Source: Lutjanus erythropterus (lineage: Eukaryota > Chordata > Actinopteri > Lutjaniformes > Lutjanidae). Taken from it: 64,000 nt of DNA. Positions within the stretch are counted from its first letter, which is position 1. Every line of letters begins with the position of its first letter. Position numbers and translations under genes: made by a program. This document shows, piece by piece, positions 30,676-64,000 of this stretch. Where the stretch lies: NCBI GenBank assembly GCA_020091685.1, contig CM034603.1:39131209-39195208 (forward strand), read 5' to 3'. The notes beneath the pieces were generated by a model. That model was not told the origin of the DNA and made no database searches. It was given only the letters and a program-made list of their open reading frames with translations.

Positions 30676-30782
30676 CCCTTTAAATTCCTGTTTTGAACAC
30701 ATGTACCCAACATAAATATAAAGTTTGAAGTTACATGGATAGACACTAGAAATGTGTGTTAAACTACAATTTTCTGTTCCAG

Positions 30783-31623: not shown

Positions 31624-31751
31624 CTTAAAGGGCTCTAAGTACATTTTTTCGTCAAATTGTGTAGGAGACAGTACAAATTCATTTGTGAAGTCACATTAAA
31701 AAGAGCAACAGACATTTTTTTTAAACTTCCAATTCAGACACTAACAGCATC

Positions 31752-32669: not shown

Positions 32670-32716
32670 TTAGTTTGAATGACTCTGAGGTGAATTATTG
32701 ATTATTGTTATTTTGC
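32670..32716. repeat. 47-bp match to the end of the window
   Basis: Equals 63954-64000. The match begins exactly at the gap edge and is still running at the window end, so its true length is unknown. Confidence 0.85.
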
Positions 32717-32799
32717 ATCATTGTGCTCCGCCTGCAAACATCAAGACTGATTTGAACCTAAATGGACAAAACAATAAGACAGAAATCCATCAGAGGACA

Positions 32800-33250
32800 T
32801 CACACAGGACAGACGGGACGAGACAGAGACAATGTAAAAGATGTAACAAGAAGAAAACAAGGTAATAAAACGTTACAATATGAAGACGAAGTAACAGGAT
32901 GAAAACAACATAATAAAACGTAAAAAGACAGAAAAGAGGGAACAAGAAGAAAACAAGGTGACAATACAAAACAAGCAAAATAACATAACAATATATAGCA
33001 AGACAAAAACAGGATACCAAGATGAACAGGATGTAACAACATATAAGAATACTGGAACAACATAATAATATGTAACAAGAAGAACATGCTGAAACAGTTT
33101 GCAAGAAGACGAGGACGGGATAACAAGACAAAAGGCATGTAAACACCTAACGAGACAAACAAATATGTAAAGATGTAAAAAGACGTGTCTACAAGAACAA
33201 GTTAACAAGATGAAAACGATGTAACAATACAAGAAAGATGAAAACTACAT
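32800..33250. repeat. Degenerate A-rich tandem array
   Basis: Imperfect repetition of units near gtaacaagatgaaaacaa and aagacagaaaac. Scraps of the same motif are at 46380-46465 and 59465-59530, and inverted at 9473-9545. Long open frames on the minus strand arise from the lack of T-rich stops and are not genes. Confidence 0.6.
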
Positions 33251-33399
33251 AAAAGACGTTACAAGATAAAAAATATATATATATATGAAAAAAAACACTG
33301 GAGAAAAGCTTCAGTTGTCTTTGGACAGAAACGGTCAGTAGAAATGTCCTTCAGAAGACGACTTTCTACTTTTATACTCTGAGGACATTTCAGAGCCTG

Positions 33400-33485
33400 A
33401 ACTTTTTCACTTTTACTGCAGTAAACAAGTTGGATCAGTACTTCTACTTTTACTCAGGTATCTGTACTTCTACTGCAGTAAAGAC
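33400..33485. repeat. Teleost 'ACTTAAGTAC' repeat fragment
   Basis: cacttttactgcagtaaac, then gtacttctacttttactcag and gtatctgtacttctactgca, of the same family as 63795-63990. Confidence 0.6.
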
Positions 33486-33553
33486 TGAGAGGACGTCTGT
33501 CTCCTCTTCTTCAGTATCTGACTGATGTTTTCTGTCCAACTAACAGCTCATTC

Positions 33554-33554
<1 letters not shown>

Positions 33555-33592
<38 letters not shown>

Positions 33593-33597
33593 ACTGT
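33555..33597. repeat. (AC)n microsatellite
   Basis: AC run of about 16 units, then acagacacac. Confidence 0.9.
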
Positions 33598-33866
33598 CTC
33601 CATGGAAACTAATATGGGTCAAAGTTCTCAGTTGACTGACTGCAGCTTCTGTCCTCATGTTGTTCATTTAGTTAACAGCTCTGAACTCAATCAGTCGTGA
33701 GTAAAAACAGTGGATTGTGACTTTAATCTGAGCTTTTATTGTGATGAGAATTCACCTTCCTGTTTCACCTCTGTGTCCTCTGACACTCACATCCTGACTG
33801 GAGAGAAAAGGCTGAGGTTTTTAGTTAAAGACGCGATCATGACACACGTCTCCGTCGTCTCCACAG

Positions 33867-33984
33867 TCAGTCTGTCGTCTCCTCTGGACAAATGGGACGA
33901 GGTGAACCTGGACGTGGAGGACGGAGGACGCAGAAGATATGAGAAGAGATGCACGTCGCACCACTCCTCCAGTGAACTGCTGTG
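33867..33984 (+). CDS. pex5l: PEX5L exon, LDKWDEV segment
   Basis: Acceptor gtcgtctccacag, donor TG|GTAAAT. Encodes [20 protein letters not shown] through SSSELLW. It needs one base from the previous exon, which is what the exon ending at 63551 supplies (G + TC = Val). Confidence 0.88.
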
Positions 33985-35654
33985 GTAAATAAACACTGAC
34001 ACACCGACTGAGCGACCCAGAGTCATAAAGGAACAGTCCGTAGTATCTGCAGTGTGGTTCTATGAGGTTCTTCTTCACAGTCAGTGTTTTTCCTTCAGTA
34101 GGTGGAGGTCAGTTTGGAGAAGCAGCAGGACCCTGCTGTGGACAGGGTCAGCAGCAACACTGATTATAGACACCTTAAAAATCAATATCTGTCTACACTA
34201 CATTTAGAATATTTTCTCCTCTTCATCTTTCTGTCAGACAGACTTTTCTGACAGGAAACAAACCAGTTATATCAGACAAATATCGAGTCTACAAACCAAC
34301 CAAACTCCATTCATAAAATCAGTGATTTTAGCTCAGTGAACACAGCAGTTTGTTGGTCTGCTGCTTCATCTGTCAGTGTGTTTGTGTTGTTGTGAGACTT
34401 CAGCCTGTGGGGTTTGGTTGGTTTAAAGGGTGTGATCTTCAACGTCAGTCATAAATTGACCTAACAGATTGATTTTAAAAAGAATTTCATCATCATCTGA
34501 CTGTGTCCATAGCAACAACCTCCTCTTCATAGCAACAGTCTGCCATAAAAAAAATGACAGGTTGTACAATACTGTAACAGACCAATCAGACTCGAGTGTT
34601 TAACAAAGTGTGTAATACTGTTATTTTGTCAATGTTAGCTGTTTGAATTCATGAAATGGTCTCGTCTTCCTGAGATATTTTCAGTTTGGTTCCTTGAACG
34701 TGCTTGAAAACTCTGGAAAAGTGACTCTGTTGAAGCTCTACGAACTCCTGCTGTCACGGTTGATGTTGTTGATGTATAACTGACAGTATACTGACGTCTG
34801 TAGGCTGCATGTTGTCGTGTGTCTGCAGTGACCTGTACGGCCTGTAGGGGCGCTAACAGAACCTCCACACTGACTGCAGGTGTTCTGTCCTCGTTCTGCA
34901 GGTCTGCAGAGTTTAAAACTGACCCTCTGACAAAGAACTCCTTCGACATCCACAGCTTCGACGACCTCGACTTCATCTCATCCACACAGCAGGTCAGCTG
35001 CCGCCTCGCCGCACGACGATACGTCAGTCAGCTGATCTTATCAATCATAAGATGATTATCAATCAGCTGATACTATCGGCCTTGTACAGCTTCATCATTA
35101 CTAACAGTGATGTTAATATTGTTATAAATATTAAAAATACGAGTGAAAGTTTATTGTTTCAGCGACTTGAATCATTTTGGATTTCATTTCAATCCTTTTG
35201 CTTCGCAGATCTAGAAAATAATTATTTATTATATAAAAACTACATAAAACTAATAAACTACTTGATTAATGGAGAAGACGATCAATGGATTAATCAATAA
35301 TGAGAATAACTCACAGAAACAACTTCCAGATATTCAATAATCCTGTCCTCCACGTGTTTGGACCTACTTTTCAACTGACAAGATTAGTTAATCAATTAAT
35401 TGATAAAATAACAGACAAATGAATCGATAATGAGAATATTGCTGATGCTTCTCCTGCAGCAGTGCCTCATCCTGACTGACTGCAGCACTCAACACACACC
35501 TTAACACATCACCATGTGTAGTTCAGGGAGCGTGGGACAACAGGACGTCCCCCTCAGAGACTCCTGCTGGTTACTTCAGGTGTCTCTTCAAATACGACTT
35601 TGTCTTTCTTCTCAAGTTTTTCAGTGTCTGAAGTTGGTTTGTCTGTTCCGTCTG

Positions 35655-35705
<51 letters not shown>

Positions 35706-35829
35706 TTTGTGTGTCTTTGTGTGTCTTCAGGACTGCGGGGTGTCCAGACGCCGCAGACGGACTCGTTCCCTGTTGGCCAGAAAGGAGTCTCTGGAGGACG
35801 AGTTTGTCAGAGCGAAGGCTGCTGTCGAG

Positions 35830-35865
<36 letters not shown>

Positions 35866-36109
35866 ACACACACACACACAGACACACACACAGACACACA
35901 CACACACACACGCACAGACACACACACACACACACAGACACACACACACACAGACACACGCACAGACACACACACACACAGACACACACACACACACACA
36001 CACACAGACACACACACACACCTGTCCTCGCTGTCATCTGCTCTCCCGTGAGCATTAAATATCATATTTGAGTTGATCTGCAGAAACCGACACCACCATC
36101 ATCATCATC

Positions 36110-36155
<46 letters not shown>

Positions 36156-36168
36156 CCACCATCATCAC

Positions 36169-36234
<66 letters not shown>

Positions 36235-36282
36235 CACCATCATCATCATCACCATCATCACCATCATCATCATCACCATCAC

Positions 36283-36359
<77 letters not shown>

Positions 36360-36770
36360 GAACTCTGAGATTCAGCAGACGTTCAGATTAATGACGCTGC
36401 TTCAGGATCAGTTTGCAGAAGTGAAATCAGATCTGAGCAGAGAGTCCTCGTCTCCGTGTGAACAACAGTCTGACTGACAAAGAGCTGAATCAACAGTCAG
36501 TCAGTCCATCAGTCAGTCAGTCAGTCCATCAGTCAGTCCATCAGTCAGTCAGTCAGTCAGTCAGTCAGTCCATCAGTCAGTCAGTCAGTCAGTCCATCAG
36601 TCAGTCAGTCAGTCCATCAGTCAGTCAGTCAGTCAGTCAGTCAGTCCATCAATCAGTCCATCAGTCAGTCAGTCCATCAGTCAGTCAGTCAGTCCATCAA
36701 TCAGTCCATCAGTCAGTCAGTCAGTCAGTCAGTCAGTCAGTCCATCAGTCAGTCAGTCCATCAGTCAGTC

Positions 36771-36803
<33 letters not shown>

Positions 36804-36806
36804 ATC

Positions 36807-36839
<33 letters not shown>

Positions 36840-39800
36840 ATCAGTCAGTCAGTCAGTCAGTCAGTCAGTCCATCAGTCAGTCAGTCCATCAATCAGTCCA
36901 TCAGTCAGTCCATCAATCAGTCCATTTACATGAGGAATTAAAAACAGGCTGGTTCCGATCAGTTCTGGATGGTTCTGGGTGGTTCTAGTTGGTTTTGGGT
37001 GGTTCTAGTTGGTTCTGGGTGGTCCTGGGTGGTTCTGGTTGGTTCTAGGTGGTTCTAGTTGGTTCTAGTTGGTTCTGGGTGGTTCGAGTTGGTTCTGGTT
37101 GGTTCTGGTTGGTTCTGGGTGGTTCTAGTTGGTTCTAGTTGGTTCTGGTTTGTTCTGGTTGGTTCTGGGTTGTTCAGGTTTGTTCTGGTTGGTTCTGGGT
37201 GGTTCTGGTTGGTTCTAGTTGGTTCTGGGTGGTTCTGGTTGGTTCTAGTTGGTTCTGGGTGGTTCTAGTTGGTTTTGGGTGGTTCTAGTTGGTTCTGGGT
37301 GGTTCTGGGTGGTTCTGGTTGGTTCTAGTTGGTTCTAGTTGGTTCTGGGTGGTTCTAGTTGGTTCTGGGTGGTTCAAGTTGGTTCTAGGTGGTTCTAGTT
37401 GGTTCTAGTTGGTTCTGGGTAGTTCGAGTTGGTTCTGGGTGGTTCTAGTTGGTTCTAGTTGGTTCTGGGTAGTTCTAGTTCGTTCTAGTTGGTTCTAGTT
37501 GGTTCTGGGTAGTTCTAGTTGGTTCTGGTTGGTTCTAGTTGGTTCTGGATGGTTCTGGTTGGTTCTCATTGGTTCTGGGTGGTTCTAGTTGGTTCTGGTT
37601 GGTTCTAGTTGGTTCTGGGTGGTTCGAGTTGGTTCTGGTTGGTTCGAGTTGGTTCTGGGTGGTTCTAGTTGGTTCTAGTTGGTTCTGGGTGGTTCTGCTG
37701 TGTGGCGGTTCTGGTTTTCTTTGGTCTGGAGGATTTTGAAGTGGGTGGGTGGTTCGAGTTGGTTCTGGTTGGTTCTAGTTGGTTCTGGGTGGTTCTGGTT
37801 GGTTCTAGTTGGTTCTGGGTGGTTCTAGTTGGTTCTGGGAGGTTCTGGGTGGTTCGAGTTGGTTCTGGTTGGTTCTGGTTGGTTCTGGGTGGTTCTAGTT
37901 GGTTCTGGTTGGTTCTGGGTGGTTCTAGTTGGTTCTAGTTGGTTCTGGTTTGTTTTGGTTGGTTCTGGGTGGTTCTGGGTGGTTCAAGTTTGTTCTGGTT
38001 GGTTCTGGGTGGTTCTGGTTGCTTCTGGTTGGTTCTGGGTGGTTCTGGGTGGTTCTAGTTGGTTCTGGGTGGTTCTGCTGTGTGGCGGTTCTGGTTTTCT
38101 TTGGTCTGGAGGATTTTGAAGTGGACAAGCAGCTCTGTGATGAAAATGCTGGTATTTAATCTGAGGCTCTCGTGTCGATGAGTTCATGGCGTTCTGCTCT
38201 TCAATCCTGTCAGTTCGGCTCAGTGAACCAATCAGAGTCTCCCGTCTGATTAAAGCTCCTCTTCATCACAGCTGACAGGTTCTGATTTTAGCTGCAGGTG
38301 TTTTAATCCACAGGTCGACTCTGACTGTGAATATTAACCTGTCAGAATCAAGTTAATCATCTCAGTGTTTCTGACACACAGTTTCAAAACTTCTATAATA
38401 TTATTATCATGTCAGATGTTACTACATGTTACTGATGATGATGATGATGATGATGATGAAGTTACTTAATATAAAGCAGAACTGAGAAAAATGACTGTAA
38501 AGTTTTCTTGTTGTTGCAGACAGATAATTGTATGTGTGTCAGTTTTCTATCTTTATATCAGGTTATTGTTTCTACATATTAATCCTGACCTCTGATTTGA
38601 CCTTTGACCTTATTTGGAAGTTCCTGTATTCTGCCTTTGCAGAGCGAACCAAAAAATATTGGGTCATACCAAAAAATATTGGGTCATACCAAAGCCACGG
38701 TTGTGGACCGACAGTCAGGGTGTGTGTCTTCGTGTTTCAGTCGGACACAGAGTTCTGGGACAAAATGCAGGCGGAGTGGGAGGAGCTCGCTCGGAGGAAC
38801 TGGCTGGAGGAGTCTGAGGACCAGGGTCCGATCCCGCCCACCGTCTCACCTGCTGAGAAGGTAAAAAACTGCTCACACAGAAATACACCACTGTCTCATC
38901 CTGGTCCTGTCGACCTGCCGTCTTCACGCGTCACACTGCAAACAGAAAGATTGAACTCTAGAAATTAATGTCGTCCTGTCGCCACATTGATCACAGGTGA
39001 AGCGCACAGACATACGCTCCAAAATGAGACATTTGAGGACGTCATCTTGGACTTTGATCAATGTTTTCTGACATTTTATGAACCGAACAACTTATTGATT
39101 AGTGGGATGACACGCAGCAAATGTGCCGCGGGCGGGAGTCAAACCGGCGGCCGCTGCAGAGGACTGACGCTCCACCAACCGAGCCGTAGAGGGGAGGAGT
39201 CTCTCTTTAAGCTGAAGACAGAAGGAGCATCAGTTATTAATGATGACAGATTATTACAGCCATGATGTTTGTCAGCATTAATCCTCTGACGCTGTAATCC
39301 TGCACTAATCCTCCTCCGCTCAGGTGTTACATCACCGTGGCGACCAAACATCTGTTCACATGTGTCCGACACGTCAGGAGCTGCTCATCTTTTTATTCTT
39401 CCTCTTCTTTTTGTTTCCAGATCAGCTGCAGATGGTTTGGAGGTGTTTCTGAATTTTTATTTTTGTGTTGTTGTTTTTTTTTGAATGACTCCATCAGTCA
39501 CTTCCTGTAAATTCTGATATTCTGATGAATCAGCTGCACGATGTGATGAAGTCACTTCCATCAGTGCAGCATTGATCTGATTCACCTGTGCTGAAGCTCA
39601 GGTGGCTGTAACTGACAGTCTACACTTCCTGCAGGTGTTTCACATTAAAAGCCTGTCAGGTCGGTCTTTGAGTTTGTCTGCAGGCAGCTGCGCTCTGTCT
39701 GCACCAAGCAAGCAGCAAACCAGCCTGTTACCACGGTAACTGCTGAAAAAACTCCCAAAATACAAAATAAGATAAAAGAATTAACAGTGTTCTGATTCTG

Positions 39801-41937
39801 TGTGTATCTGATCCACCAACCAGCACTTCTTATAGAAATCTACAGTTTTAAATGAGTTGTCACAGTGAAACAGCTCAGCTGACCAACAGAGGCCGACAGA
39901 AATACACTTTATGTTTATGGATTATATTGATGCCGAATTGACTAGAAGACTGTCAACATGTGACACCTTTGATCTTGTGTTTCTACACTTTTGTGTTTTT
40001 ACAAACTTGTAAGAATTTGTTAAAATGTTGTGTTTTTAAAGGGAGCTTCAGTTTAATTCAAACTGCTAATTTATATATTTTTCAATATTTTGTCACCACT
40101 ACAGAAACACTCTAACCTCTAAAGTGTGATAAGATTGTCTGACTTTGACTGCTGTTAGTTGTTAGTTTGATCAATGGTTCAGTAAAGTGTGTATTGATTA
40201 TCGGCGATGGCTGATCAGACTAATTATCCTCAGTCTGTAACAGCAGTAGAAGAACACGATGAACACAATGATATTTTAATATAAGAGTGTGATATGTTAA
40301 ATGAGTGATGGCCAAAAGTATGTGGACAGCTGAACATACGTGACTGTGACATCATGTCACTAACGGCCTCGTCTGGTTCCAGATGTGTTTCTGTTTGTGA
40401 ACGTAAGAACAGAATCTGAGCTGCAGCAGAATCGATGTGTCTGCTGACAGCTGAGCTCCGTTTGTTTCCATCAGTTTATTGATTGATTTGACAGAGACAG
40501 AACACACTGATCAATATGAGCAGAATCACAGAAAACCACAAAACACCTGAAGAGCTGCTGATAAAAACACACAGAGCTGCTGTAGAAGGTTTCCTCAGTG
40601 AGCTCAGAGGATCTCAAACTGACTGCAGAGCTGCAGGTCGTCAGCCTGATCACTTATTACATGGTTCTCTACCAGAACAAATGTGTGCCACGAAATATTC
40701 ATTTCAAAACAATCTGTAGGATTCAAAAATGTTTTTTTGTATTTAAAAATGATTTTAGCCTCCAGAGTCTGATTGCATCCCTAGCAACAGTCTGTTCTTT
40801 CATAGCAACGGTCTGTTCTTCATAGCAACGATCTGTTCTTCATAGCAACGGTCTGTTCTTCATAGCAACGGTCTGTTCTTTCATAGCAACCGTCTGTTCT
40901 TTCATAGCAACCGTCTTGTTCTTCATAGCAACGTCTGTTCTTCATAGCAACAGTCTGTTCTTTCATAGCAACCATCTGTTCTTTCATAGCAACTGTCTGT
41001 TCTTCATAGCAACGGTCTGTTCTTCATAGCAACCGTCTGTTCTTCATAGCAACCGTCTGTTCTTTCATAGCAATGGTCTGTTCGTCATAGCAACGATCTG
41101 TTCTTCATAGCAACGGTGTGTTCTTCATAGCAACCGTCTGTTCTTCATAGCAACCGTCTGTTCTTTAATAGCAACCGTCTGTTCTTCATAGCAACGGTCT
41201 GTTCTCCATAGCAACCGTCTGTTCTCCATAGCAACCGTCTGTTCTCCATAGCAACCGTCTGTTCTTCATAGCAACAGACTTTCATGTAAAATAATGCAGT
41301 AATAATATGAAGGTGAAACCATGAACGCTGCCGTCTCTGTGTCTGTGCTCGCCTCTGCAGTCATATTTCACAGGTCATGTGACCTGTGTTTGGCGTCATG
41401 TGACCGTTGTGCAGGATGTTTTTGTCCTTGAGTTGTTGAGTGAACATATGGTTCCTGTCAGAGGCGCCGGTTCTTCTTCTGCTGCTCAGTGAAATACTGA
41501 ACCATTAATCTGAAACCTGCTGCTGTGATGAGACTCAGCCTGCAGGGGGCGCCGCCGTCACGTGGTCATCTCTGTCTTCTGAATTGACATATTTCATCCA
41601 GCATGTACTTTGTTCTCTGTGCTGCAGACTGAGTCATTGTGCAGTTTCACTTAATCACATAGCAATTAGAAGATAAATATGTTTAATACGATTTCTTTTA
41701 TAATCAAATCTGCTCCCCATAGAGGGAAATAAAGAAAAGTTTTTTTTTTATGTTTCAGTTTTTATTAAACAAAAACAACTGAATTCTTTCAGGCTGGGTT
41801 ACAAATCCAGATTAATTTTTAAACCTGATTAAATCCTTTAATTGCACCAGACTTTTAAACTAGATTAAAATGAAGAAAGATTTATTTTAAATCTTGGTTT
41901 AGTTTTACTGTAAAAATAGATTAAATGTAATTCTGTT

Positions 41938-41989
<52 letters not shown>

Positions 41990-44913
41990 TAAACTGTGAT
42001 CCAATATTAAAAGTTTAAACTGACTCTTGAGGAGGTTCAACGTTGTTTCTTTATTTCAGATGGATTAAGAAAAATAATCTTATAAATCAATCTGTCAATG
42101 GATTTGAATTCAGGTGAACAAACATCTGAACTCTTTCTTTGTTATTTAAACTAAACTGAGATTAGTTTTTAGTTTAATTTAAATCTGGATTTACTCATTC
42201 TAAAACCTTGATGAATATTTGTTGCAGCTCAGACTGAAGAGGTGAATCAGCTCACAGACAGAGAGGAGAGAAAATGAAGGTTAGCTGCTGATTTTAAAAT
42301 GATGCACCAAGAAAAGAGAAAGTTGACACTGAAATCCAAACTAAAAATGATCTCAATTCAGTTTAAAGAAAGAAAAAAGAAAGAAAATTAAACTTGTATA
42401 TTTTATGTAATGTATTCATCATACCAATACAACAAGAACACAATATTAAAATGCAGCTAAAAGAGTAGAAATTGTTTAAAAATATTTAAAAGGATCAAAC
42501 CAGAGAAATAAATATCAGACATTCAAACCCACTGGAAATAAAAATCAAACATCTGGTCACTGATCTGTTCAATAACCCTTAACAGAGTAACATAAATCTA
42601 TTGATCGTCTGCAGTCTGGACATACGTCTGTGTGCTTCACCTGTCGTCACATGTTTGGACCTATTTTTCAATTGGTGATCAATCTCCACTGATCGATTAG
42701 TTCTTTGGTCCATAAAATATCAGAAAATATTGATCAGAGTACAAGATGACGTCCTCAAATGTCTTGTTTTGTCCACAACTCAAAGATCATCAGTTTCCTG
42801 TCAGAGACGAGGAAAGAAACCAGAAAATATTCACAGTTAAGAAACTGAAATCACAGAATTTAGACTTTTTTTTTTTTTTTTAATTACTCAAAATGATTAA
42901 TCAAAGTCTTGATGTCTTTAAATTAAATTTGGGTTCTTTATGAAAATGTTTCAGTTTTCTTATATTTCATAAGCTGACAGTTCAGTTGTGGTGAGTATGA
43001 GATGTGATGGAAACATTTAAATGTTGAATGAAAGAGGTCTGAGGACTGAGCCCTGAGGAACTCCACACGTCATATTGATCCATGAAAAGATAAATATTGA
43101 TCCTGGATGTCCCCCAGTAACCAGGTCTGATGTGTCCCGTGTCCCCTGCAGGGTTACTACTTCAACACCAACAACCCGTACAGAGACTGGCCCAACGCCT
43201 TCGCCGAGGGTCAGGAGAAAGCTCGGGAGGGAGACCTGAACGCCGCTGTCCTGCTGCTGGAGGCCGCCATCTTACAGGACCCGCAGGACTCTGAGGTGAC
43301 TCTGCACCTGAACACCAGTTAACATGTCTTCTCCAGGTCAGACCTGCTCCAGCTGCCGGGTCTTCAGACCAAACTGTCATCTGAATAATCTTTAAATCGG
43401 GGCTCTACGTCTTTAAATCTGGGTTTTACGTCTTTAAATCGGGGTTCTACATGTTTAAATCGGGGCTCTACGTGTTTAAATCAGGGTTCTGCGTCTTTAA
43501 ATCGGGGCTCTGCATGTTTAAATCGGGGCTCTACGTGTTTAAATCGGGGTTCTACGTCTTTAAATCGGGGCTCTGCGTGTTTAAATCGGGGTTCTACGTG
43601 TTTAAATCGGGGCTCTACGTGTTTAAATCGGGGTTCTACGTGTTTAAATCGGGGCTCTACGTGTTTAAATCGGGGCTCTACGTGTTTAAATCGGGGGTTC
43701 TACGTCTTTAAATCGGGGCTCTACGTGTTTAAATCGGGGCTCTACGTGTTTAAATCGGGGCTCTACGTTTAAATCGGGGCTCTACATGTTTAAATCGGGG
43801 TTCTATATGTTTAAATCGGGGTTCTATGTGTTTAAATCAGGGTTCTACATGTTTCTGCTGCAGAACAGCTGTTTGTGTGTTTTCAGGCCTGGCAGGTTTT
43901 AGGAATGACTCAGGCTGAGAACGAGAACGAACAGGCCGCCATCGTGTCGCTGCAGAGGTCAGACTTCATTGAATTCAGATGAGTTTTGTTTATTATTCTA
44001 GACCAGATCCAGACCAGATCACCTGCTCACCTGCCGTATCATCTGTCACAGGTGTCTGGAGCTCCGCCCCAACAACCTGCCAGCTCTGATGGCGCTCGCC
44101 GTTAGCTTCACCAACAGCGGCATGCAGCGGCAGGCGTGTGACGCTCTGCGCCGCTGGATCTGCCACAACCCCAGATACAAACACCTGGTCCTGGACCACA
44201 GGAGTCCGCTGCCAGGCTCCCCGGCCACGCCTCGCAGGGGCCCCTGCTCGCCAGCCAGGTACGACACGTCCTCCTGAGGTCATCAATGTGGTCTCAATAC
44301 TACACTACCCACGAGTCTCAGCTGCTGTTACCATGGAGACAAGCCCATCTACAGCTGTGACATCAGAATTTATCAGACGAGATCAAATCTTCAATCATCT
44401 GATGCTCTCTGATCGGACGGTTCTGACAGCAGTGAATTCTGGGAGGTGTAGTTTGATTTCTGCAGGTTACTGATTACAATCAGTCCAGATTACATTTTAA
44501 AATTGTGTAATGCAAACATGCATTTTATTTGAACATGTGTTGAGGCGTTCAAAAGAAAAAAAGAACATTTCAGTACTTTTGAAGTAATTCAAAAGTACTG
44601 AAATTACAAAAAGGGCTGCGTAAACAGTTATTATGGTCACTTAATCTGTTGCAAATGTACGTTTCAACTAGTGATCAATCAGGCAATCATTTTTCCATTA
44701 ATCAATTAGTTGTTTGATTCATAAAATATCAGAAAATGAGTCCTCAAATGTCTGGTTTTGTCCATAAATCAAAGATCATCAGTTTCCTGTCAGAGACGAG
44801 GAAAGAAACCAGAAAATATTCACAGTCAAGAAACTGAAATCAGTTGAAGCTGTAATGATTCAAACACGATGATTCTGCAGCATTAAAGGAGCATTTCAAC
44901 ATTTATAAAACCC

Positions 44914-44996
<83 letters not shown>

Positions 44997-50650: not shown

Positions 50651-50694
50651 ATTCCCATTAAGGGTGTAACGATTCACTCATGCGTCTGATTCAT

Positions 50695-52394: not shown

Positions 52395-52780
52395 TAAAGG
52401 GCCCATATTATACAAAATGCACTTTTTCAAGGTTTTCCAGTGAAAATCTGTCCTCCTGCCTGCAGACTCCCCTGATTGGAGAACAGCTCTCTCTCTCCCT
52501 CTCTTCTTGTTCCACCTTTCACAATGTAGACTAAAACGCTCCGTTTGGATTTGGTTCCCCTTAGGACGTCATAAGGGGAACCGCCTCCTCTGAGCAGGAG
52601 ACACTCCCTGTGCTGTCTGTCTGTGCCGCCCCCTGAAAACCTGAGAGTCCGTCTCCCAGTCGCCATGTTTTTGTCCCCGCTAACGCTGCTCTGAACAAAG
52701 TGTTCTGTTGGTACCTGCAGGAACCAAGTCTTCATCTGTTCTCCTCGTCTGACCCACAGAACACCCAGTGGATCCATTTT
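52395..52780. mobile_element. Teleost 'GGGCCCATATTAT' element
   Basis: Begins taaagggcccatattataca, then aaatgcactttttcaaggtt, the typical end of a common fish non-autonomous hAT-like element. The right boundary is estimated. Confidence 0.6.
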
Positions 52781-52838
52781 TATTATATCAATTTTATTTT
52801 TAAGTATTTTAAGTAAAATATCCCCTCAACGCTCGGTA

Positions 52839-52841
<3 letters not shown>

Positions 52842-52887
<46 letters not shown>

Positions 52888-52888
52888 N

Positions 52889-52946
<58 letters not shown>
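52842..52946. repeat. (GT)n microsatellite with one unresolved base
   Basis: About 52 GT units with an N at 52888, where the phase also slips. Confidence 0.95.
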
Positions 52947-52949
<3 letters not shown>

Positions 52950-54496
52950 CAGAGGCTGTGTTGTATAAGGCACCACTGAGTTTGACTTGTTTATGAGACA
53001 CTAAAACTCTGCAGTCTGGACAGACATGATTCATGTTTCATCACAGCGTGATGCAGAAATCTACCAGGAACCTTCAGTCATTTGATGGACGACGTCAAAA
53101 CTTGAGTCTAGTGCCACTTTTTGCAGGACGACCCTGAAGGCCTCTGACTCTGACACTCAGTTTAGAGTTGCAGAGTCAGATTCAAAGAAAAGATTCATGC
53201 ATTCATTCAACCTTTATTTTACCTCAGAAATACACTGAACACAGCCAATAAAATAAAATAATCTAGATACAGAAACACCAAAGAGAAGCTTACAGAATAG
53301 TGCCAACAGGAAGTAAAAAAAGCAATAAAAGCCACAATAAAATTTAAAAATAAATAAAAACATCAGTTTTATGTGACAGACTCATTACGATGTCTTTATG
53401 TTGACACTGATTATCATCATCATTTCTGTTTTCTGCCTTTATTGTTTCCAATTCATTTATTTTTAAATTGCATTCGATGTTTTTATTAAACATTCATCGA
53501 AATTTAATGGAAATCACAATCTGGTCTTCTGTGATTGTCAAATCACAGGAGGTGCAATATTTGATAAAACTTCACTTTTGTTTGTAAAGTTGTTGTGATG
53601 CTGCAGAGACGTCAGATTCTACAGACTGAAGAAAATCATTCAGCCCCGACACTCAGGTTCCAGACTGACTCTTTGTTTGTTTGTTTGTTTGTTTGTTTCT
53701 TCTCGATGACTTAACGTGACTGGCGTTGACGTTGACTCATGTCTTTATATGGTTAAAGTGTTAAAGAGACAGGAGGTAAAATGTTTTGTTTGAGAGTGTG
53801 AACAGAGCGGCTGGAAATGAGCAGAACAGATCCTGTAACCCTCATCTGTGTGGAACTCATGAAGAGTTTGGTTCCACGATAAAAAGTTTGTGTAAAACAT
53901 TCTTAAATAAATCAATCATGGTAGCGTTTGTTGCCGTGACTGAGTGAACGTGACCCTCCTGAACGAATGAATGAATGAATGAACCTGTCGATCTGCCTGT
54001 TGTAGGGGAAAGGGGAAAGGGTCGTTGCCATGGTGCTGAAGGAGCTTCCTGGTAAAAAGGCATCCTCAGAAGGAAACCCCCTCCTCACCGTGACAACCAA
54101 GGTTGGCATGACGACCACGCTTGTTTGTTATCTGGCACTGCTCAGAGATTCTTTTCTTTATCATTATTTTCTTTAAATATTTTGCTTGTTTGCTTCTAAG
54201 CTGCAGCTTCATGTTCAGTGACAGACGTGAATCATCCACATCATCACACCACAGTCTGTGAAACAGCTTTAAAACTTCTACCTGTTCTTTTCTCTGATAT
54301 GATTTTATGGCACTGATCTGTTAGAAACTCCTGTAGAACCAAGAGAACCAACAGGACAGAACGTGAGCAGGAGAGCTGAGCTGACAGTGACAGTAAAACT
54401 TTATGGCACTAACATGTTGATGTAAACGTTCCTTCAGAACAATAGAACCTGCTGAGGGACAAATGTGTTCTCATGATGTCATTGAATTTTAATCAC

Positions 54497-54497
<1 letters not shown>
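52950..54497. other. Intergenic DNA
   Basis: No gene. A short (TTTG)n run lies at about 53672-53698 and gaatgaatgaatgaatgaat at 53962-53982. Confidence 0.45.
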
Positions 54498-54539
<42 letters not shown>

Positions 54540-54540
54540 C
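54498..54540. repeat. (GAT)n microsatellite
   Basis: About 14 GAT units. Confidence 0.92.
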
Positions 54541-54692
54541 AGATTGATCACAGAGGATGTGTGACTGTGTCTGTACATGAAAAAAGAAATATCGTAAAAG
54601 AAAATCCGTAAAACAAAACTGAACTCGACATTAGTGAGTCATTAAACCACAGTAGTTTATTCTTCACCTCCATCACAACGTGCAGACCAACA

Positions 54693-54751
54693 ACATGGAC
54701 GTGGACATGGACATGGACGTGGACATGGACATGGACATGGACATGGACACA
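54693..54751. repeat. (GGACAT)n / (GGACGT)n hexanucleotide repeat
   Basis: About nine units of ggacat/ggacgt preceding a unique stretch. Confidence 0.9.
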
Positions 54752-54854
54752 CACCCCAACTGCATCATTAATATAAAACACACTTCATTCAAACTCAACA
54801 GAAATAAACTAAAAATTAATTTCACAATCATCAAAATATTCACCATCACAATAC

Positions 54855-55031
54855 AGAGGGACAGACAGAGAGACAGAGAGAGAGAGAGAGACACAGAGAG
54901 AGAGAGACAGAGAGAGAGAGAGACGGACAGAGAGAGAGAGAGAGAGAGAGACGGACAGAGAGAGAGAGAGACAGAGAGAGAGAGACAGAGAGAGAGAGAG
55001 ACAGAGAGAGAGAGAGACGGACAGAGAGAGA

Positions 55032-55067
<36 letters not shown>

Positions 55068-55150
55068 CGGACAGAAAGAGACAGAGAGAGAGAGAGAGAG
55101 AGACGGACAGAGAGAGACAGAGAGAGATGGACAGAGACAGACGGACGGAC
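54855..55150. repeat. Polypurine (GA)n array with ACAGA/ACGGACA interruptions
   Basis: Roughly 295 bases almost wholly purine on the + strand, with periodic gagacagagag and acggacagagag blocks. Apparent frames on either strand (Arg/Glu-rich or Ser/Leu-rich) are artefacts. Confidence 0.95.
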
Positions 55151-56759
55151 ATGTTGTCTGGTGACTCATCACAGGTTACCTCTCACCTGTCTGTCATGCC
55201 GTCTGTGTTATTCTTCCTCTTCTTTGTGTTTATCTTATTCAGGTTGTGTTTTATTTAAATTGTGTCTCTTTACATTGTGGTTTTGTGTTTGTGTCATTTT
55301 TACATGATGTTTTCTGACCTTTGAGCTGAAGTCGTGTGAATTCTGAGGTAGTGAGCAGAAGTTTAACAGACGTTTTCTGGATGTTTGTCTGAAGTTGTAG
55401 GGAGGTTGGATGTTCTTTAATGGACAGTGGAGCTCTTGTTCTCTTTCACAGGATTAAATACAAGCATATTCCAGTTGACATGTGGACGGACACGGCTGTG
55501 TGGATTAGGATTAGGACACACACACACACACACACACACAGATCAGTGATCAGGTTAAATCAGGTCTCAGACTGAACCAGTGAATTAAACGTTCTTGTAC
55601 TTTGTCCTACATTTCCCAGAAGGCCTTTCAGTAACCTCAGGAGAGCTGGCAGCAGTTTGTGTTCTTAAAGGAGCCAGATGATTCTGAGAGTTCCTGTAAT
55701 GATTATTTTCATTGTCAATTAATCAGTCGATTACTTTATTGATTAATGTCAGAAAATGTTGATCAAAGTCCATGATGACATCCTCAGATATTAAATATCA
55801 AACCTTTTCTGATGAAATATGACACTGATTGGTTTTTTTCTCATATTTTCTCCAAAATAAAACTAATAACACAAATTCTTGACCAAAAAATTGAAGTTAC
55901 AGCCTTTTTCCTTTGTAGTTGTGTAGAGTTATGTGTCATCTGCATAAAGAGATATATTCCATAATCTGAGTGAGGGGGAGCGTTTACATGTTGAACAGAA
56001 GAGGTCTGAGACTGCAGCCTTTTTTTTTTTTTGTTGTTTGTTCGCTCAGATCTTGTCTTGTGAATATGAACTTTAAAAGCTAGCTTTACTTGGTGCTAAC
56101 TGGTCCGGCTGTGTTCACTGGGAGCAGGAAGAGTCAGCTAACAGGAACGCCCCCCCTCCTACATCTGCAGTTCATGTTATCTGCATGGCATTCCTCCTCC
56201 CTGGCTGCCTGTTTTTTGCAGGAAGCATGTAAGGAATAAGCTGCTTCACTCACTGTTTCATATGAACTTTAATATTTGATGAGGCTGCTGATATTCTCTC
56301 ATTTCATGTCTGTGATGGGCTCAACTTACAGAAACAGCTGGAGCAGCTGTGGGGGGGTGAGAGGTCAGGAGGTTTTCAGATTGTCTGAGTGTGTTTTCAT
56401 GCTCCTCTGCTCCTCCTGTTTCTGCCCTGCTCACATGAATTAAACATTTAAAGATATTGTAACGGTGAAGTCAGCAGCAGCAGCTGTGTTCATGAATGGA
56501 TTTATCACTGCGTCCTCCGCTGCTTCACACACTAAAGAATTCTTTCAGCTTTAAAAATACATGAAGAGGATTTGATCATGTCTGTGACTCATTTAGAAAC
56601 ATTTCAGTCACATCATCCTTTAATAAAGAGACATGTTCATGTTTGTTCTCACTCTGCCATCAGTCAGCAGCACACATGGAACCACAGTCTGTAAAAACAT
56701 CAGTTTTTCTGTTTTATTCTTTTAACATTAATGTGACAGGAAGAGACACAAAGAGCCTG
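55151..56759. other. Intergenic DNA
   Basis: No exon recognised. (AC)n at 55516-55541. 55700-55870 has fragments of the 'gatgacatcctcagat / cttttctgatgaaatatg' family also present near 45790-45860. Confidence 0.45.
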
Positions 56760-57815
56760 TTCACACCGGGTGTCAACACGTTCACACCAGGTGTCAACAC
56801 GTTCACACCTGTTGTCAACACGTTCACACCTGCTATCAACACGTTCACACCTGGCGTCAACACGTTCACACCTGCTATCAACACGTTCACACCTGTTGTC
56901 AACACGTTCACACCTGCTATCAACACGTTCACACCTGGCGTCAACACGTTCACACCTGCTATCAACACGTTCACACCTGTTGTCAACACGTTCACACCTG
57001 CTATCAACACGTTCACACCTGGCGTCAACACGTTCACACCTGCTATCAACACGTTCACACCTGTTGTCAACACGTTCACACCTGCTATCAACACGTTCAC
57101 ACCTGGCGTCAACACGTTCACACCTGCTATCAACACGTTCACACCTGTTGTCAACACGTTCACACCTGCTATCAACACGTTCACACCTGGCGTCAACACG
57201 TTCACACCTGGTGTCAACACGTTCACACCTGCTATCAACACGTTCACACCTGGCGTCAACACGTTCACACCTGCTATCAACACGTTCACACCTGGCGTCA
57301 ACACGTTCACACCTGCTATCAACACGTTCACACCTGGTGTCAACACGTTCACACCTGCTATCAACACGTTCACACCTGGCGTCAACACGTTCACACCTGG
57401 TGTCAACACGTTCACACCTGCTATCAACACGTTCACACCTGGCGTCAACACGTTCACACCTGGCGTCAACACGTTCACACCTGCTATTAACACGTTCACA
57501 CCTGGCGTCAACACGTTCACACCTGCTATCAACACGTTCACATCTGCTATCAACACGTTCACACCTGGCGTCAACACGTTCACACCTTTTGTCAACACAT
57601 TCACACCTGCTATCAACACGTTCACACCTTTTGTCAACACGTTCACACCTGCTATCAACATGTTCACACCTTTTGTCAACACGTTCACACCTGCTATCAA
57701 CACGTTCACACCGGGTGTCAACACGTTCACACCTGCTATCAACACGTTCACACCGGGTGTCAACACGTTCACACCGGGTGTCAACACGTTCACACCTGCT
57801 ATCAACACGTTCACT
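56760..57815. repeat. 21-bp minisatellite with 84-bp higher-order unit
   Basis: About 50 tandem units of GTTCACACCTGCTATCAACAC. The variable core triplets are gctatc, ggcgtc, ggtgtc, gttgtc or tttgtc. From about 56846 to 57181 four successive 84-base blocks show the fixed order ggcgtc-gctatc-gttgtc-gctatc. Because 21 is divisible by three, a 480-codon frame and several others on both strands stay open. None has a promoter, splice signals or a family match. Confidence 0.96.
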
Positions 57816-58194
57816 GCATCTCAGTGTCCCATTATGAACAAATCTCCTGCAAGGACAAACAAACACAATTATTTATACACAAAGAAAAAAGAACTCAATG
57901 TAGAACATTTACTGAATTTACGAGAACGCCCTTTGTGTCTCTTTGTGGTCCCTTTTGGTCTTTGTAGTCATTGTGTTTCTGTTTGTGATCATGTTGTGTC
58001 CTTTTGTAGTCACATGATTGATTTTTGTAAAGAAATATTAATTATCTGGGGCCCTGGGTGTGTGTCCAGTCGTCCCGTTCAGTAATCTGTCACAATCAGA
58101 TTGTATTAATCAAATATCTATCAAACATTCTGACTCCTCATAACAGCAGAGCCTCAGACTCGTCCTCGTTTTAATTTTTTTTCAGTATGACTGT
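57816..58194. other. DNA between two minisatellites
   Basis: No gene. 57920-58030 has loose repeats of a ctttgtggtcccttttggtc-like motif, typical of degenerate tandem sequence. Confidence 0.4.
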
Positions 58195-58735
58195 GATCCA
58201 GATGTTGTCTTCAGTATTACAGTGATCCAGATGTTATCTCCAGTATTACATTGATCCAGATGTTGTCTTTTGTATGGCAGTGATCCAGATGTTGTCTTTT
58301 GTATGGCAGTGATCCAGATGTTGTCTTCAGTATGTCAGTGATCCAGATGTTATCTCCAGTATTACATTGATCCAGATGTTATCTCTAGTATTACATTGAT
58401 CCAGATGTTATCTCCAGTATCACATTGATCCAGATGTTGTCTTTACTATTGCAGTAATCTAGATGTTGTCACCAGTATAACAGTGGACCAGCTGTTGTTT
58501 TTTGTATTACAGTGATCCAGATGTTGTCTTCAGTATCAGAGTGATCCACATGTTGTCTTCAGTGTCGCAGTGATCCAGATGTTGTTTTTAGTATGACAGT
58601 GATCCAGATGTTATCTCCAGTATCACAGTGATCCAGATGTTTTCTTTACCATTGCAGTGATCCAGATGTTGTCTTCAGTATGACAGTGATCCAGATGTTG
58701 TTTTTTGTGTGACAGTGATCCAGATGTTGTGTGTC
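58195..58735. repeat. 29-30-bp CAGTGATCCAGATGTTGTCTT minisatellite
   Basis: About 18 diverged units of acaGTGATCCAGATGTTGTCTT followed by cagtat. It lies 235 bases upstream of a PEX5L exon. Confidence 0.93.
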
Positions 58736-58970
58736 CATCCAGGAGCTGCTAACAGCTCACTCACATGATTGGAGGACATTAACTGTAAACTAATATAAAC
58801 TAAAAATGTGTCTGAAGTTGTAGCTGACAGCTAACTGACTGTCTCCATGACAACAGTATTATAATGTTGGTTTGTGAGTGTGTGTGAGTTGATGGAGCTG
58901 TCCTCCTCCTCCTCCTCCTCCATCACCTCCATCACTCTTCCTCTCTGACTCTGGTGTTTCTGCTCTCCAG

Positions 58971-59085
58971 CTGGTCCGGGAGCAGCAGGAGAGTCGACCC
59001 CTGCTGAGTCCCTCCATCGATGACTTCCTGTCGGAGAGCCGCGGCGATGCCCCGTCCACGCGACCCCTCACCTCCAACACAGCAG
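58971..59085 (+). CDS. pex5l: PEX5L exon, [12 protein letters not shown] segment
   Basis: Acceptor tgctctccag, donor GCAG|GTAGAC, 38 codons plus one base. Phase 0 at its start, so an upstream exon ending in phase 0 is required. Confidence 0.94.
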
Positions 59086-62000
59086 GTAGACTCCCGCTAA
59101 TTATCACCTCTTCACCCCCCTCTGTCTGTCCCCCTCCTCCTGTCCTCCACAGCTCAGCAGGAGTCCCCTTCTACTCATCATCACCTCCTCTTCATCCTGC
59201 AGCCTCCTCCATCAGCCTCTGATCTACTTTCTGTTTTCTGCTAATTAGCTAATATTAGCATGCTAACGTGATGAAGTGGTGTTGATTCAAACCTGCACAT
59301 CACTTTGCTCTGATGCATTTTGTGTCACAAGACAAAAGTCAAAGCAAAGGCAAAAATATGTTTGTGCTCCATGTTTGGACTTAACTTTTAATTGACATGA
59401 TTGAAATAGGATTAATTAGTGCATCACACACAGCACACGCAAACCAGATGAGGAAGATGTTAAAGACGTAATAAAGACGAAAACATTGTAACAAGATGAA
59501 AACAATGTGAGAGACCAAACAAGACAAAAAAAAAATACTGTTGACTGCTAATTAGCTAATGTTAGCATGTTGACATGGTGAACATGCTAAACATACCTGC
59601 TAAATATCAGTGTGCTAATGTCATTGTGGGCTTTTTAATTATTTTATTGTGTAAATGTGTCAGTGTAAACCAGCTGGTAGCAGATGAAAAGTCAGAGGAT
59701 CTCCAGAGTTATGACATTTCATCATGAGTCTTATTTATGGTGGAGACAGTGGAGATATTGTCACTGTCAGTTAATCTGTCAGTATTTTTTTTTTTTTTTC
59801 AATTAATTAAACCTGTTATAATCGCATCAGTTGAAAATTAAGTCCAAACGTGGAGCACATGGACATATTTTGTGTTTTTGCTTCTGATTTGTCTCGTGAC
59901 ACAAAATGCATCAAAGTGAGGTGATGTGCATCATCAGCAGTTTAAACAGTTGAACTGCTTTGATTGGCTGCTCCTGATGATTAATCACCTTTTACTGAGT
60001 CGAAGAAACTCCTGCAGAGTCGTGGTCTTTTGTGTAGGATCACAGGAAATGCAGTGGAACACGGGGAGGAGCTTCAGACGTCCTGTCAGGTTTTTGTCCC
60101 CACCACTTTGTAAACTCATCCTGAGAAGAACATGAATGTGTCAGATACTGTTGAGATCATCAGCGATGTTCCTGCTGCTCTTCATCCTCATCTTCCTCTA
60201 GAGCAACAGTCTGCAACCTTTACGATCAACAGAGACATTTTTGGCCACAAAAAGACAAAAATCTTTTCTTTTTTTGATTCAGTATCTAAAGCTTCCTGAA
60301 GTTCCTAAAGCCACGCAGACATTTTAGTTGGCAAAATATTAACAGAAAATAGTTGAATCAACTTCAAATTTCTACGTAACGAACTGCAGTAGATTTTTTT
60401 TTGTTTTGAGCCCAACTCAAACTTTTTGAAAAAAGTGAAATAAACTTTGAAAAAATTCAAAACTCACTTGTCTCCTGCAGTAAGTTGTTTTGAATTTTTG
60501 AGTTTTCTCAACTTTTTTGATAAACAAAAGATAAATTTAAAAAAAATACCAGTTCTTCTTTCTCGCCAAAGTCACAGGGATCCTCTGGGGAGGAGCTGAT
60601 GCTGCAGATCTCCTCCTCTCTGTCTCTGTCACCTCCTTTTGTCCACCTTCTGCTCCTTCATGATTCTCCTGAAGCTCCAGCTCCCCCTGTGTGTCTGTCC
60701 TCCTGTCCTCCTCTGACCTCGTCTCTTCCTCGTCTCTCTGACCTCCTCCTCTCTTCCTCTCTTCCCTCCCAAACGTCTCTAACTTTGTGTCCTTGGCTGT
60801 CCTCCGTCCTCCTCTGTGCCCATCTGTCTCCTCTGAGTCAGCAGGTACACTGGACATTAATTAACACCTCTGACCTGCTCTGTCCTCCTGTCTGCTCCCT
60901 CCTCCTCCTCCTCCTCCTCCTCTTCCTCACTTCCTTTAGGATTCATTAAGAGACTCTCTGCTCTTTGTTTGTTTCAGTAGTTTTTAAAAAAAGAACTTCC
61001 TCAGCTGATATTTCATCTGTTCTGCTTCAAACTGCAGATCGGACGTTCTCATCAGGTTTCAGAACATTTAAAGGTCACTGAGCTCAGGTCAGCTGTTAAT
61101 GCATATCATCGTTCTCCTTCACTTATTCTTATTTAAGATGATCTAATATTCAGCAGCTGAGCTCCAATAAAATCATCAGTAATGCAGTAAAACTGTTCAA
61201 ACTGCAGTTTTTTCTGACATGTTGCTGATCCAGTGGACTGAAATGTCCTCAGTGTCTTTGTCAGGTTCACATTTCATTTATCACACAAAACACGTGGTCA
61301 CCTCCTCCTCTGACTGCACAGTAAGAACAACAGGAACATCAAACGTGACAGAACAAGATGAAGAACACGTGTAGAACATGTACAGTATACGGCCAAAAGT
61401 ATGTGGACAGATGGACACTTTTACTGTACATGATAATAAACCATCAGGATTTCATGATGTTCACCTCACTACACGTCTGTTTGTTTTAATCAACTGAGTA
61501 CAATCACTGCAAACCACTGTCAGCCAATCAGTGATCAGTGTTTATTTCACTGGATAAAAAATCATTTACGATGAAATCTATGAAACAAGTAAAACAAATA
61601 CAAATAAGATGGAAGTGTGAGGGAGGGACGAGCAGAATCAGATGTGTTTATTCCTCCGGAAATATTTATTAATCTGTTATTAATATTAAATAATCACATG
61701 TTACACCTGTTTGATTTTAGTAAACACACCACACAGAGTCACACAGTAGTATTTAGGTGACACTGCTGCCTCCTCAGCTGCAGGAACATCGTTCTGCGTG
61801 ACTGAAGCAGCCATGTGATCATCTTTGCATTAGAGTTTTCTGTTCATGTCTTTGTGTTTTTTGATTTTCAGAGTGTGTTGGACATGCAGTTTGTTCAACA
61901 ACCTCTCAGCTACTGTAGTTTATTGTCTTCATCTCACAACTGAACAAAAGTCTTAAAGTCTTTACAGTTTCTGTGAAACACTGCAACAGCGTTGAATGAT

Positions 62001-62252
62001 CCCACGAGACGGTTTAGATCAGTTAGGAGTGTCAGTGAACCGACAGGACAGACGTTCTGCAGCTCGTCTCTGAAGAGACACTGATTTAAAAACTGTCACA
62101 TCACTTCAATTGAGTCAAACAAGTGTAACTGGTCAGGCTGTTGTCATAGAAACGCATCATAAGTTTGTAATATTTACTGAAACTTTAAAACTGCTGTCTG
62201 AACTTCTACACACACACACACACACACACACACAGAGACACACAGACACACA

Positions 62253-62312
<60 letters not shown>

Positions 62313-62346
62313 TACACACAGAGAGACACACAGACACACACATACA

Positions 62347-62378
<32 letters not shown>

Positions 62379-62388
62379 TACACACATA

Positions 62389-62427
<39 letters not shown>

Positions 62428-62456
62428 ACAGAGAGACACACAGACACACACATACA

Positions 62457-62497
<41 letters not shown>

Positions 62498-62661
62498 ACA
62501 CACACACACACATACACATACACACAGAGAGACACACACACGCACACACACATACACACACAGAGAGACACACACACACACACACAGAGAGACACACACA
62601 CACACACACACATACACACAGAGAGACACACAGACACACACACACATAAACACAGAGAGAG

Positions 62662-62693
<32 letters not shown>

Positions 62694-62786
62694 ACAGAGA
62701 GACACACACACACACACACATACACACAGAGAGACACACACACGCACACACGCACACACACACACACAGAGAGACACACACACACA

Positions 62787-62823
<37 letters not shown>

Positions 62824-63551
62824 CTCCTCTCAGCTCAGCGGAGCAGCTCTGTGTCTGTCTGTCTGTGACTCGGGCTTCAGTGTTGATTGGCTGTTACTTT
62901 TAACCAATCAGCAAATTATATTTACCAGTACGTTACTATGGTAACAACTACAGACAGGAAGAGATCAAAGCCTGCTGAATTTTTAAAATTATTTTAACCC
63001 TAATCACAGTTTTTTTTCCTGATACATGATCCATGAAATGATCCAAACTGATACGATCTGAACCGTGAGTTCTGTGATCTGTTACTGTTTAACACGTCAG
63101 ACTGAGATAATTCAGTTCCAAAACTGATCAAATCAAATATATAAATCTGGATTTTCTTTGTTTGAAACACAGTCAGATTTAAAGTTGAGGTTCAGGACGC
63201 TCGACAGACCTGTTTGACTTCAGGTTGACCAGCTGTTATCAGACATTAACCCTCCTCCCTGTCGTCCTGCAGTTCTGTCCACGGCTCTGGACCTGGTGGA
63301 CCTCAGCGAGCCGGGGGAGAGCAGCGGGGGCAGCAGCGGGGGCAGCAGCGGGGGCAGTAATGGCGGCAGTAATGGGGGCAGTAGCGGCAGCAGCAGTAAC
63401 AGGGAGCAGAGGAGGAGTCCTCTGAGGAGGAAGGGCAGCTCAAAGAGCCCTCGGCGCCGGACGAGACCTGATGAGACGGAGCTGATCCAGGTGGAGGTGG
63501 AACACCTGCCTGCCAGTCCCAGAACACCTGAGAGGATCTCACTGGAATCAG
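58971..63551 (+). CDS. pex5l: PEX5L preceding exons, found downstream of the gene's 3' end
   Basis: Two exons encode the part of PEX5L that should precede the LDKWDEV exon. The first gives [20 protein letters not shown], then [18 protein letters not shown]. The second gives [16 protein letters not shown], a Ser/Gly run, and [14 protein letters not shown]. Human PEX5L has the same order ([30 protein letters not shown]), so the identification is firm. Phases fit each other, and the last exon ends with one base, exactly what the exon at 33867 needs. Exons before 58971 (the alternatively spliced N-terminus) were not found. The order in this window therefore cannot be transcribed into one normal mRNA. 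Confidence 0.92.
59086..63272. other. PEX5L intron DNA
   Basis: No exon seen. 60600-60950 is pyrimidine-rich (cctcct runs). 61385-61410 holds another acggccaaaagtatgtggac transposon end. The (CA)n array at 62208-62821 is listed separately. Confidence 0.5.
62208..62821. repeat. Compound (CA)n array, 0.6 kb
   Basis: CA/CATA/CAGAGAGACA compound repeat of about 610 bases, with repeated blocks catacacacagagagacaca. All open frames across it are artefacts. Confidence 0.96.
63273..63551 (+). CDS. pex5l: PEX5L exon, LDLVDLSEP segment with Ser/Gly repeat
   Basis: Acceptor gtcgtcctgcag, donor TCAG|GTAGTG. Encodes [16 protein letters not shown], then a coding minisatellite of 12-base agcagcgggggc units (63318-63390; Ser-Ser-Gly-Gly and Ser-Asn-Gly-Gly), then a basic stretch ([20 protein letters not shown]) and [20 protein letters not shown]. 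Ends in phase 1. Confidence 0.93.
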
Positions 63552-63794
63552 GTAGTGAGGATGAGGAACATGTGACAACAGATAATTAATATTTTATTCT
63601 TCATGAGCTGATGAGTTCCTGCAGCTGTGTGCTAACGTGTTAGCATCAGCTCATCTGATGATATTATGGTCTGTATTTACAGACTGTTCTGTTACCAAGT
63701 GATCAAAATGAGTTAGTGCAGCTTTAAATGTACAAAATGTATCTGCACTCATCAGCACCAACGTTTAGAGGATCTGAACGTTCCAGCCTGACAG

Positions 63795-63990
63795 GTAAGC
63801 AGAGGAGTGGGAGTAACTGAGTACAAATACTTAGTTACTCTACTTTTCACTTTTCAGGTATCTGTACTTTACTTATTATTATTTATTTTTCTACATCTGA
63901 ATAGAAATACCTGAACTTTCTCCTCCTCACATTTTCTAAACTGACTCTTTACTTTAGTTTGAATGACTCTGAGGTGAATTATTGATTATT
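63795..63990. repeat. Teleost 'ACTTAAGTAC' repeat fragment at window end
   Basis: gagtaactgagtacaaatac, ttagttactctacttttcac, gtatctgtactttactta. The adjoining last 47 bases equal 32670-32716. Confidence 0.65.
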
Positions 63991-64000
63991 GTTATTTTGC

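Follow-up and report, generated by a model that had tools for sequence, protein, structure and literature searches.

Rotated exon order of pex5lb in a Lutjanus erythropterus chromosome assembly, most likely produced by a misjoin

Introduction

The stretch analyzed here (the window: 64,000 nucleotides of Lutjanus erythropterus, C13:39131209-39195208) carries the coding exons of pex5lb, a gene for a PEX5-related protein also known as TRIP8b, in an order that does not follow the protein: the 3' exons (33867-47406) are printed ahead of the 5' exons (54006-54101, 58971-59085 and 63273-63551). pex5lb is the gene of a neuronal partner of HCN channels. C13, a sequence of 39,665,718 bases in a genome of 937.6 Mb and 444 contigs, ends ~0.5 Mb beyond the window, which is composed of three pieces with gaps of 500 N between them, at 15421-15920 and 32170-32669. 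The third piece is formed by two blocks, here called A and B (Table 1), and a single n at 52888 sits between the two halves of the gene, within a tract of GT repeats, (GT)n, of which block A's last bases make up exactly 47. Another single n is found at 31992; that at 52888 is absent from a preliminary description of this DNA. Downstream of 64000, the sequence reads 3,000 N (64001-67000), then letters (67001-98558), and then N up to 123792 (window coordinates), where the stretch examined ends.

Table 1. Features of the third piece of the window and of the gap ahead of it.
Feature	Position	Strand	Evidence
500-N gap before block A	32170..32669	.	sequence read
Block A: 3' portion of pex5lb with its final 10 coding exons, plus downstream flank	32670..52887	+	starts directly after 500-N gap; ends in (GT)n ahead of n
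First 47 bases of block A, the same as 63954-64000	32670..32716	+	exact match
3' part of the dispersed element	32717..33507	+	element alignments
pex5lb exon with LDKWDEV, phase 1 at entry; next after 63273-63551 in the protein	33867..33984	+	frame, tblastn, borders
pex5lb exon	34902..34992	+	tblastn, borders
pex5lb exon	35731..35829	+	tblastn, homologs, borders
pex5lb exon	38741..38860	+	tblastn, borders
pex5lb exon	43152..43295	+	tblastn, borders
pex5lb exon	43887..43957	+	tblastn, borders
pex5lb exon	44052..44258	+	tblastn, borders
pex5lb exon	45011..45176	+	tblastn, borders
pex5lb exon	45988..46145	+	tblastn, borders
pex5lb last exon, stop	47208..47406	+	tblastn, borders
(GT)n tract with single n at 52888, proposed false A-to-B join	52841..52946	+	47 bases left, 58 right of n
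Block B: 5' portion of pex5lb, in which 3 coding exons were found	52889..64000	+	3,000 N come after
pex5lb alternative 5' exon (GKGERVVAMVLKELPGKKASSEGNPLLTVTTK)	54006..54101	+	tblastn with P0002 and P0003; borders
pex5lb exon	58971..59085	+	frame, tblastn, borders
pex5lb exon, phase 1 at end	63273..63551	+	frame, tblastn, borders
5' part of the same dispersed element, cut by contig end	63795..64000	+	element alignments
47 bases identical to 32670-32716, within the dispersed element	63954..64000	+	exact match

Exon order and homologs of pex5lb

Twelve coding exons were located from their reading frame and splice sites, and 54006-54101 was added by comparison with homologs. AG and GT borders are present at the twelve exons, which end with a stop at 47406. 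Read with block B first and block A second, they encode a PEX5-related protein in one open frame of 588 codons plus the stop, in which every phase fits and no internal stop occurs, whereas the same exons in printed order contain 15 stops. The product of the B-to-A order is 94.6% identical to residues 38-620 of its nearest homolog (P0003). That the 3' exons precede the 5' exons on the piece 32670-64000 had been proposed in the preliminary description, together with the completion of the G left by 63551 with the two bases at 33867; exon placement and the single frame bear out the former, and the latter proved correct, G plus TC giving GTC, that is, the valine seen in the six homologs viewed. The start of exon 35731-35829 falls at 35731 once homologs are used, the placement by frame only having set it at 35748. 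The intron running through the B/A join would measure 1,599 bp, and the other measured introns of the gene range from 94 to ~4,870 bp. Homolog comparison found no exon with the start MYQVQ within the window. A minisatellite with 42/63-base units (56759-57814; 25.1 copies of 42) occupies part of a pex5lb intron, with long open frames on both strands.

The homolog search was carried out with a query of 581 amino acids, assembled from the exons in B-to-A order before the correction of the 35731 exon. Query coverage reached 99-100% in 118 of the best 120 of 2,798 matches, the other two being P0081 (78%) and P0111 (65%), and among the matches listed the protein was closest to percomorph fishes, with 94% for Symphorus nematophorus, the nearest named species whose match spans the full query, and 93% for Sparus aurata. 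At least one motif from block B and at least one from block A were present in 119 of the best 120 homologs, always with the block B motif first; the remaining one, P0114, displayed block A motifs only, and all five motifs were found in 31 of the 120. The gene order of the relatives thus contradicts the printed order and is restored by reading B to A.

A dispersed element divided between the block ends

A dispersed element takes up the final ~200 bases of the window, which all 40 scored genome candidates match, self included, and the first ~840 bases of block A are part of the same element; in this and the other genome-wide searches, only the best candidates were scored, and stretches reading N are invisible. 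A copy of the element within the window (9749-9432) gives one unbroken alignment over the join of B's end and A's start (expect value, E, 2e-23), the B side by itself giving E 4e-16 and the A side by itself 2e-13. Ten further genomic copies were tested, namely L002-L008, among the 40 matches to the end of B, and L041-L043, among the 71 matches to the start of A. Nine run unbroken across the B/A join and past the 47-base overlap described below, the match of L042 being limited to the far 3' part, and both L004 and L041 are letter-identical to B-then-A through the join, for 69 and 61 bases, respectively. The B-to-A order thus also restores a sequence that is independent of the gene. Since copies of the element are contiguous elsewhere in the genome, and together with the exon evidence, we infer that the true place of block A is after block B; judging from sequence, the true order is therefore B (52889-64000) followed by A (32670-52887).

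These observations also bear on the possibility that a true rearrangement placed the 5' exons downstream of the 3' exons and broke pex5lb. This would yield the exon order as printed, but every exon found is intact and conserved, and a rearrangement would not leave the two halves of the dispersed element at opposite extremes of the piece, sharing the same bases where it was cut; we consider it extremely unlikely.

The 47-base overlap

The preliminary description had pointed out that the last 47 bases of the window repeat the first 47 after the N gap. The match is indeed exact, and it is flanked by N on its outer sides (32669 before A and 64001 after B), constituting an end-to-end overlap. Two copies of the element, L004 at C5:44.30 Mb and L041 at C19:1.12 Mb, also contain these 47 bases without change, and the match is therefore neither due to chance nor unique. 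Taken by itself, the repeat is weak evidence for adjacency; we thus rejected it as a proof, the order resting instead on the exons and the split element.

The closing of the piece on itself in sequence is also what extrachromosomal circular DNA would display, had a circle bearing this segment entered the sequencing and been assembled next to the chromosome. Copies on other chromosomes, however, share the 47 bases at which the piece closes, and the gene copy is the sole one found in the assembly, where a chromosomal copy should exist too, so that we regard such a circle as very unlikely.

A comparable feature was seen at the end of piece 1, whose last 47 bases (15374-15420) recur at 76876-76922 and at -7619 to -7573 (window coordinates, reverse strand), each time over exactly 47 bases, a possible sign of contigs ending at repeated words of this length. 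One linked-read assembler is described as using k=48, with abutting edges overlapping by k-1 bases and lines that can form circles (Weisenfeld et al., 2017; PMC5411770). A k=48 graph would produce ends at repeated words of 47 bases; a link to that program is offered as a suggestion only. The identification of Supernova as the assembler was not adopted, as k=48 fits and the single n does not.

Search for a second copy

One alternative is a real, near-identical 31.3-kb tandem duplication of pex5lb, lacking the MYQVQ exon, which would have arisen by exchange between two (GT)n tracts and collapsed during assembly into a cycle printed from mid-gene, A-n-B being its true junction. The preliminary description had likewise considered a true tandem copy about 31.3 kb apart, as well as a continuation of 64000 into 32717. 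If a tandem copy followed 64000, position 67001 would correspond to 35717. Comparison of 67001-98558 (31.6 kb) with the window at E 1e-10 gave eight matches, two of them in block A (110 columns at 91% and 145 at 77%) and the longest (692 columns, 74%) in piece 2; no copy of block A from 35717 onward was found in this sequence. The proposed continuation agrees with the reconstructed chromosome; in the assembly itself, 64000 is followed by N and then by this sequence devoid of a block A copy. Further, no pex5lb exon was detected by tblastn (E 1e-3) in 67001-98558, nor in the 30 kb that lead up to the window.

Searching the whole genome with the nearest homolog yielded 26 matches, of which 13 were on C13, 10 on C7 and 3 on C5. 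All those on C13 lie within the window, one per exon, and no second exon with LDKWDEV was found; such an exon, together with unrelated sequence after 64000, had been named in the preliminary description as evidence that would speak against its proposal. The matches on C7, retrieved by the same search, correspond to a paralogous gene, presumably pex5la, and appear in normal protein order on the minus strand from 26.60 to 26.53 Mb, in contrast to the broken order of pex5lb on C13. The start of block A had one full-length match in the genome, itself, and the same was true of its outer flank, apart from a dispersed repeat in the first ~510-530 bases. A second unit beside the first was therefore found neither in 67001-98558, nor in the 30 kb before the window, nor in the genome-wide search, with 64001-67000 reading N.

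These results lend the tandem copy no support: block A does not recur after 64000, each exon, the start of A and its outer flank occur at one place among the best candidates scored, N stretches being invisible, and the gap before A is preceded by metap1d and cactin rather than by B. Conversely, the A/B join lies in (GT)n on both sides, as expected of an exchange between microsatellites; the search of the window yielded no MYQVQ exon; and a collapse would account for each exon being found once and would print the same letters as a misjoin. Weighing both sides, we consider a tandem duplication unlikely, and slightly more so in the specific form of a very recent or heterozygous 31.3-kb duplication generated through (GT)n exchange and hidden as a rotated contig.

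Neighboring pieces

Piece 2 (15921-32169) contains 5' exons of metap1d, identified with a human query, and exons of cactin, of which the last has frame breaks and a second partial copy is present. The piece begins and ends with the same 177 bases, and as a whole it represents a rotated, ~97% identical copy of C13:32.588-32.625 Mb (minus strand) with a gap-free junction at 21006/21010: 15923-20584 corresponds to 32593208-32588625 (97.1%), 20632-21006 to 32588455-32588093 (94.7%), and 21010-31991 to 32625123-32614222 (97.3%). The junction would join a metap1d intron to a cactin intron. Beyond the equivalent of 31991, the 177-base block does not follow in the chromosomal copy. C13:32594081-32609961, situated between the cactin block and the metap1d block of that copy, holds nine matches to bases 1-140 of piece 2, in units 91-94% alike. 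Piece 2 was examined as a second case of the artefact proposed for pex5lb and was rejected as support, given that the 177-base block resembles these repeated C13 units and that the junction is gap-free; it may be a real tandem neighbor or another misjoin.

The cactin copy at 26942-27397 shows several frame breaks in its last exon, and the second partial copy (30778-31258) lies within a 91% direct repeat (24861-25999 / 29928-31110). Sequencing error is the less likely cause of these frame breaks, as stops are also present in this exon of the cactin copy at C13:32.62 Mb; another cactin copy is located near C13:31.69 Mb. In the two 120-row homolog tables, pex5lb and cactin are on an equally sized sequence in 32 of the 40 comparable species; in the other 8 their carriers differ, several being short scaffolds. 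The two genes thus appear to share a chromosome in most species, which fits both pieces belonging to C13.

Elsewhere in the window, a young interspersed repeat family (4974-5348, 38476-38693 and 45314-45689) occurs in both orientations, its copies being 97.6-99.5% identical, with a 20-base tandem unit inside, and an open frame at 2611-3165 resembles, by eye, the C-terminal part of a long interspersed nuclear element (LINE) reverse transcriptase.

Discussion

Taken together, our results indicate that the printed order is best explained as a misjoin, introduced by assembly, of one normal pex5lb gene, the DNA of the animal most likely not being scrambled, a reading to which we assign a probability of about 0.8. 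Of the explanations offered in the preliminary description, a contig joined to itself or misordered gains support from the exon order, the open frame, the split element, the lack of a second copy in the searches, and the n within (GT)n. We favor a misjoin over a duplication because it needs no missing copies.

Under this explanation, the contig graph would have broken at a word common to the element copies, ~400 bases beyond exon 63273-63551, so that B now closes, and A opens, with the same 47 bases. On its outer sides, the B+A stretch is bounded by long (GT)n tracts. A scaffolder that knew A and B to be neighbors, without knowing their order, may then have linked the (GT)n end of A to the (GT)n start of B, writing one n, and the misjoined piece would have been set beside other pieces ~0.5 Mb from the chromosome end, with the MYQVQ exon and the true flanks elsewhere or missing.

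Several points weigh against a misjoin. The arrangement unique-(GT)47-n-(GT)58-unique (lengths in bases) is also expected of a long microsatellite that was correctly bridged, which would make the A-to-B order real. The 47-base pattern occurs at just 3 of the 11 piece ends compared with the sequence at hand (piece 1's last bases and both ends facing the B/A boundary), being absent at 67001 and 98558, and the ends of piece 2 differ. According to PMC5411770, the linked-read assembler described there prints gaps as 100 or 10 N, not as one n. Lastly, piece 2 contains a rotated junction free of gaps, so real tandem or circular structures may be possible in this fish.

As printed, the sequence could lead automatic annotation to split pex5lb into two partial genes, or to call a broken or duplicated gene. 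The case shows a gene rotated within what appears to be a single contig, the sole mark being one n in a microsatellite, and it offers a simple check, namely exon order combined with an interrupted repeat element. The anomaly is real; it is a question of assembly with limited wider interest, and the chance that it conceals a recent duplication is small. Such a duplication, if real, would amount to a modest copy-number variant affecting pex5lb, and considered with the rotated metap1d-cactin piece, it would point to rotated contigs close to the ends of chromosomes as marks of collapsed tandem duplications, which could be searched for systematically.

Ordering errors made by Hi-C scaffolders have been tabulated (PMC6719893), and another source reports a Hi-C assembly to which 500 Ns were added following 3D-DNA (PMC12879420); this agrees with the gaps in the window but identifies nothing. 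The present case resembles the contig ordering errors of scaffolded drafts such as those in PMC6719893 in that neighboring contigs would be misordered, with 500-N gaps nearby; it differs from them in that the wrong order is sealed by a single n within (GT)n instead of a scaffold-sized gap, so that the product looks like one contig. It is also similar to the false duplications described in vertebrate assemblies (Ko et al., 2022; PMC9516828), in which a repeat beside gaps imitates gene duplication. With respect to the criteria given in that work, gaps or N runs are present here and no part of the gene was found doubled; in contrast to those false duplications, no exon was found twice, and only 47 bases of a dispersed element are repeated.

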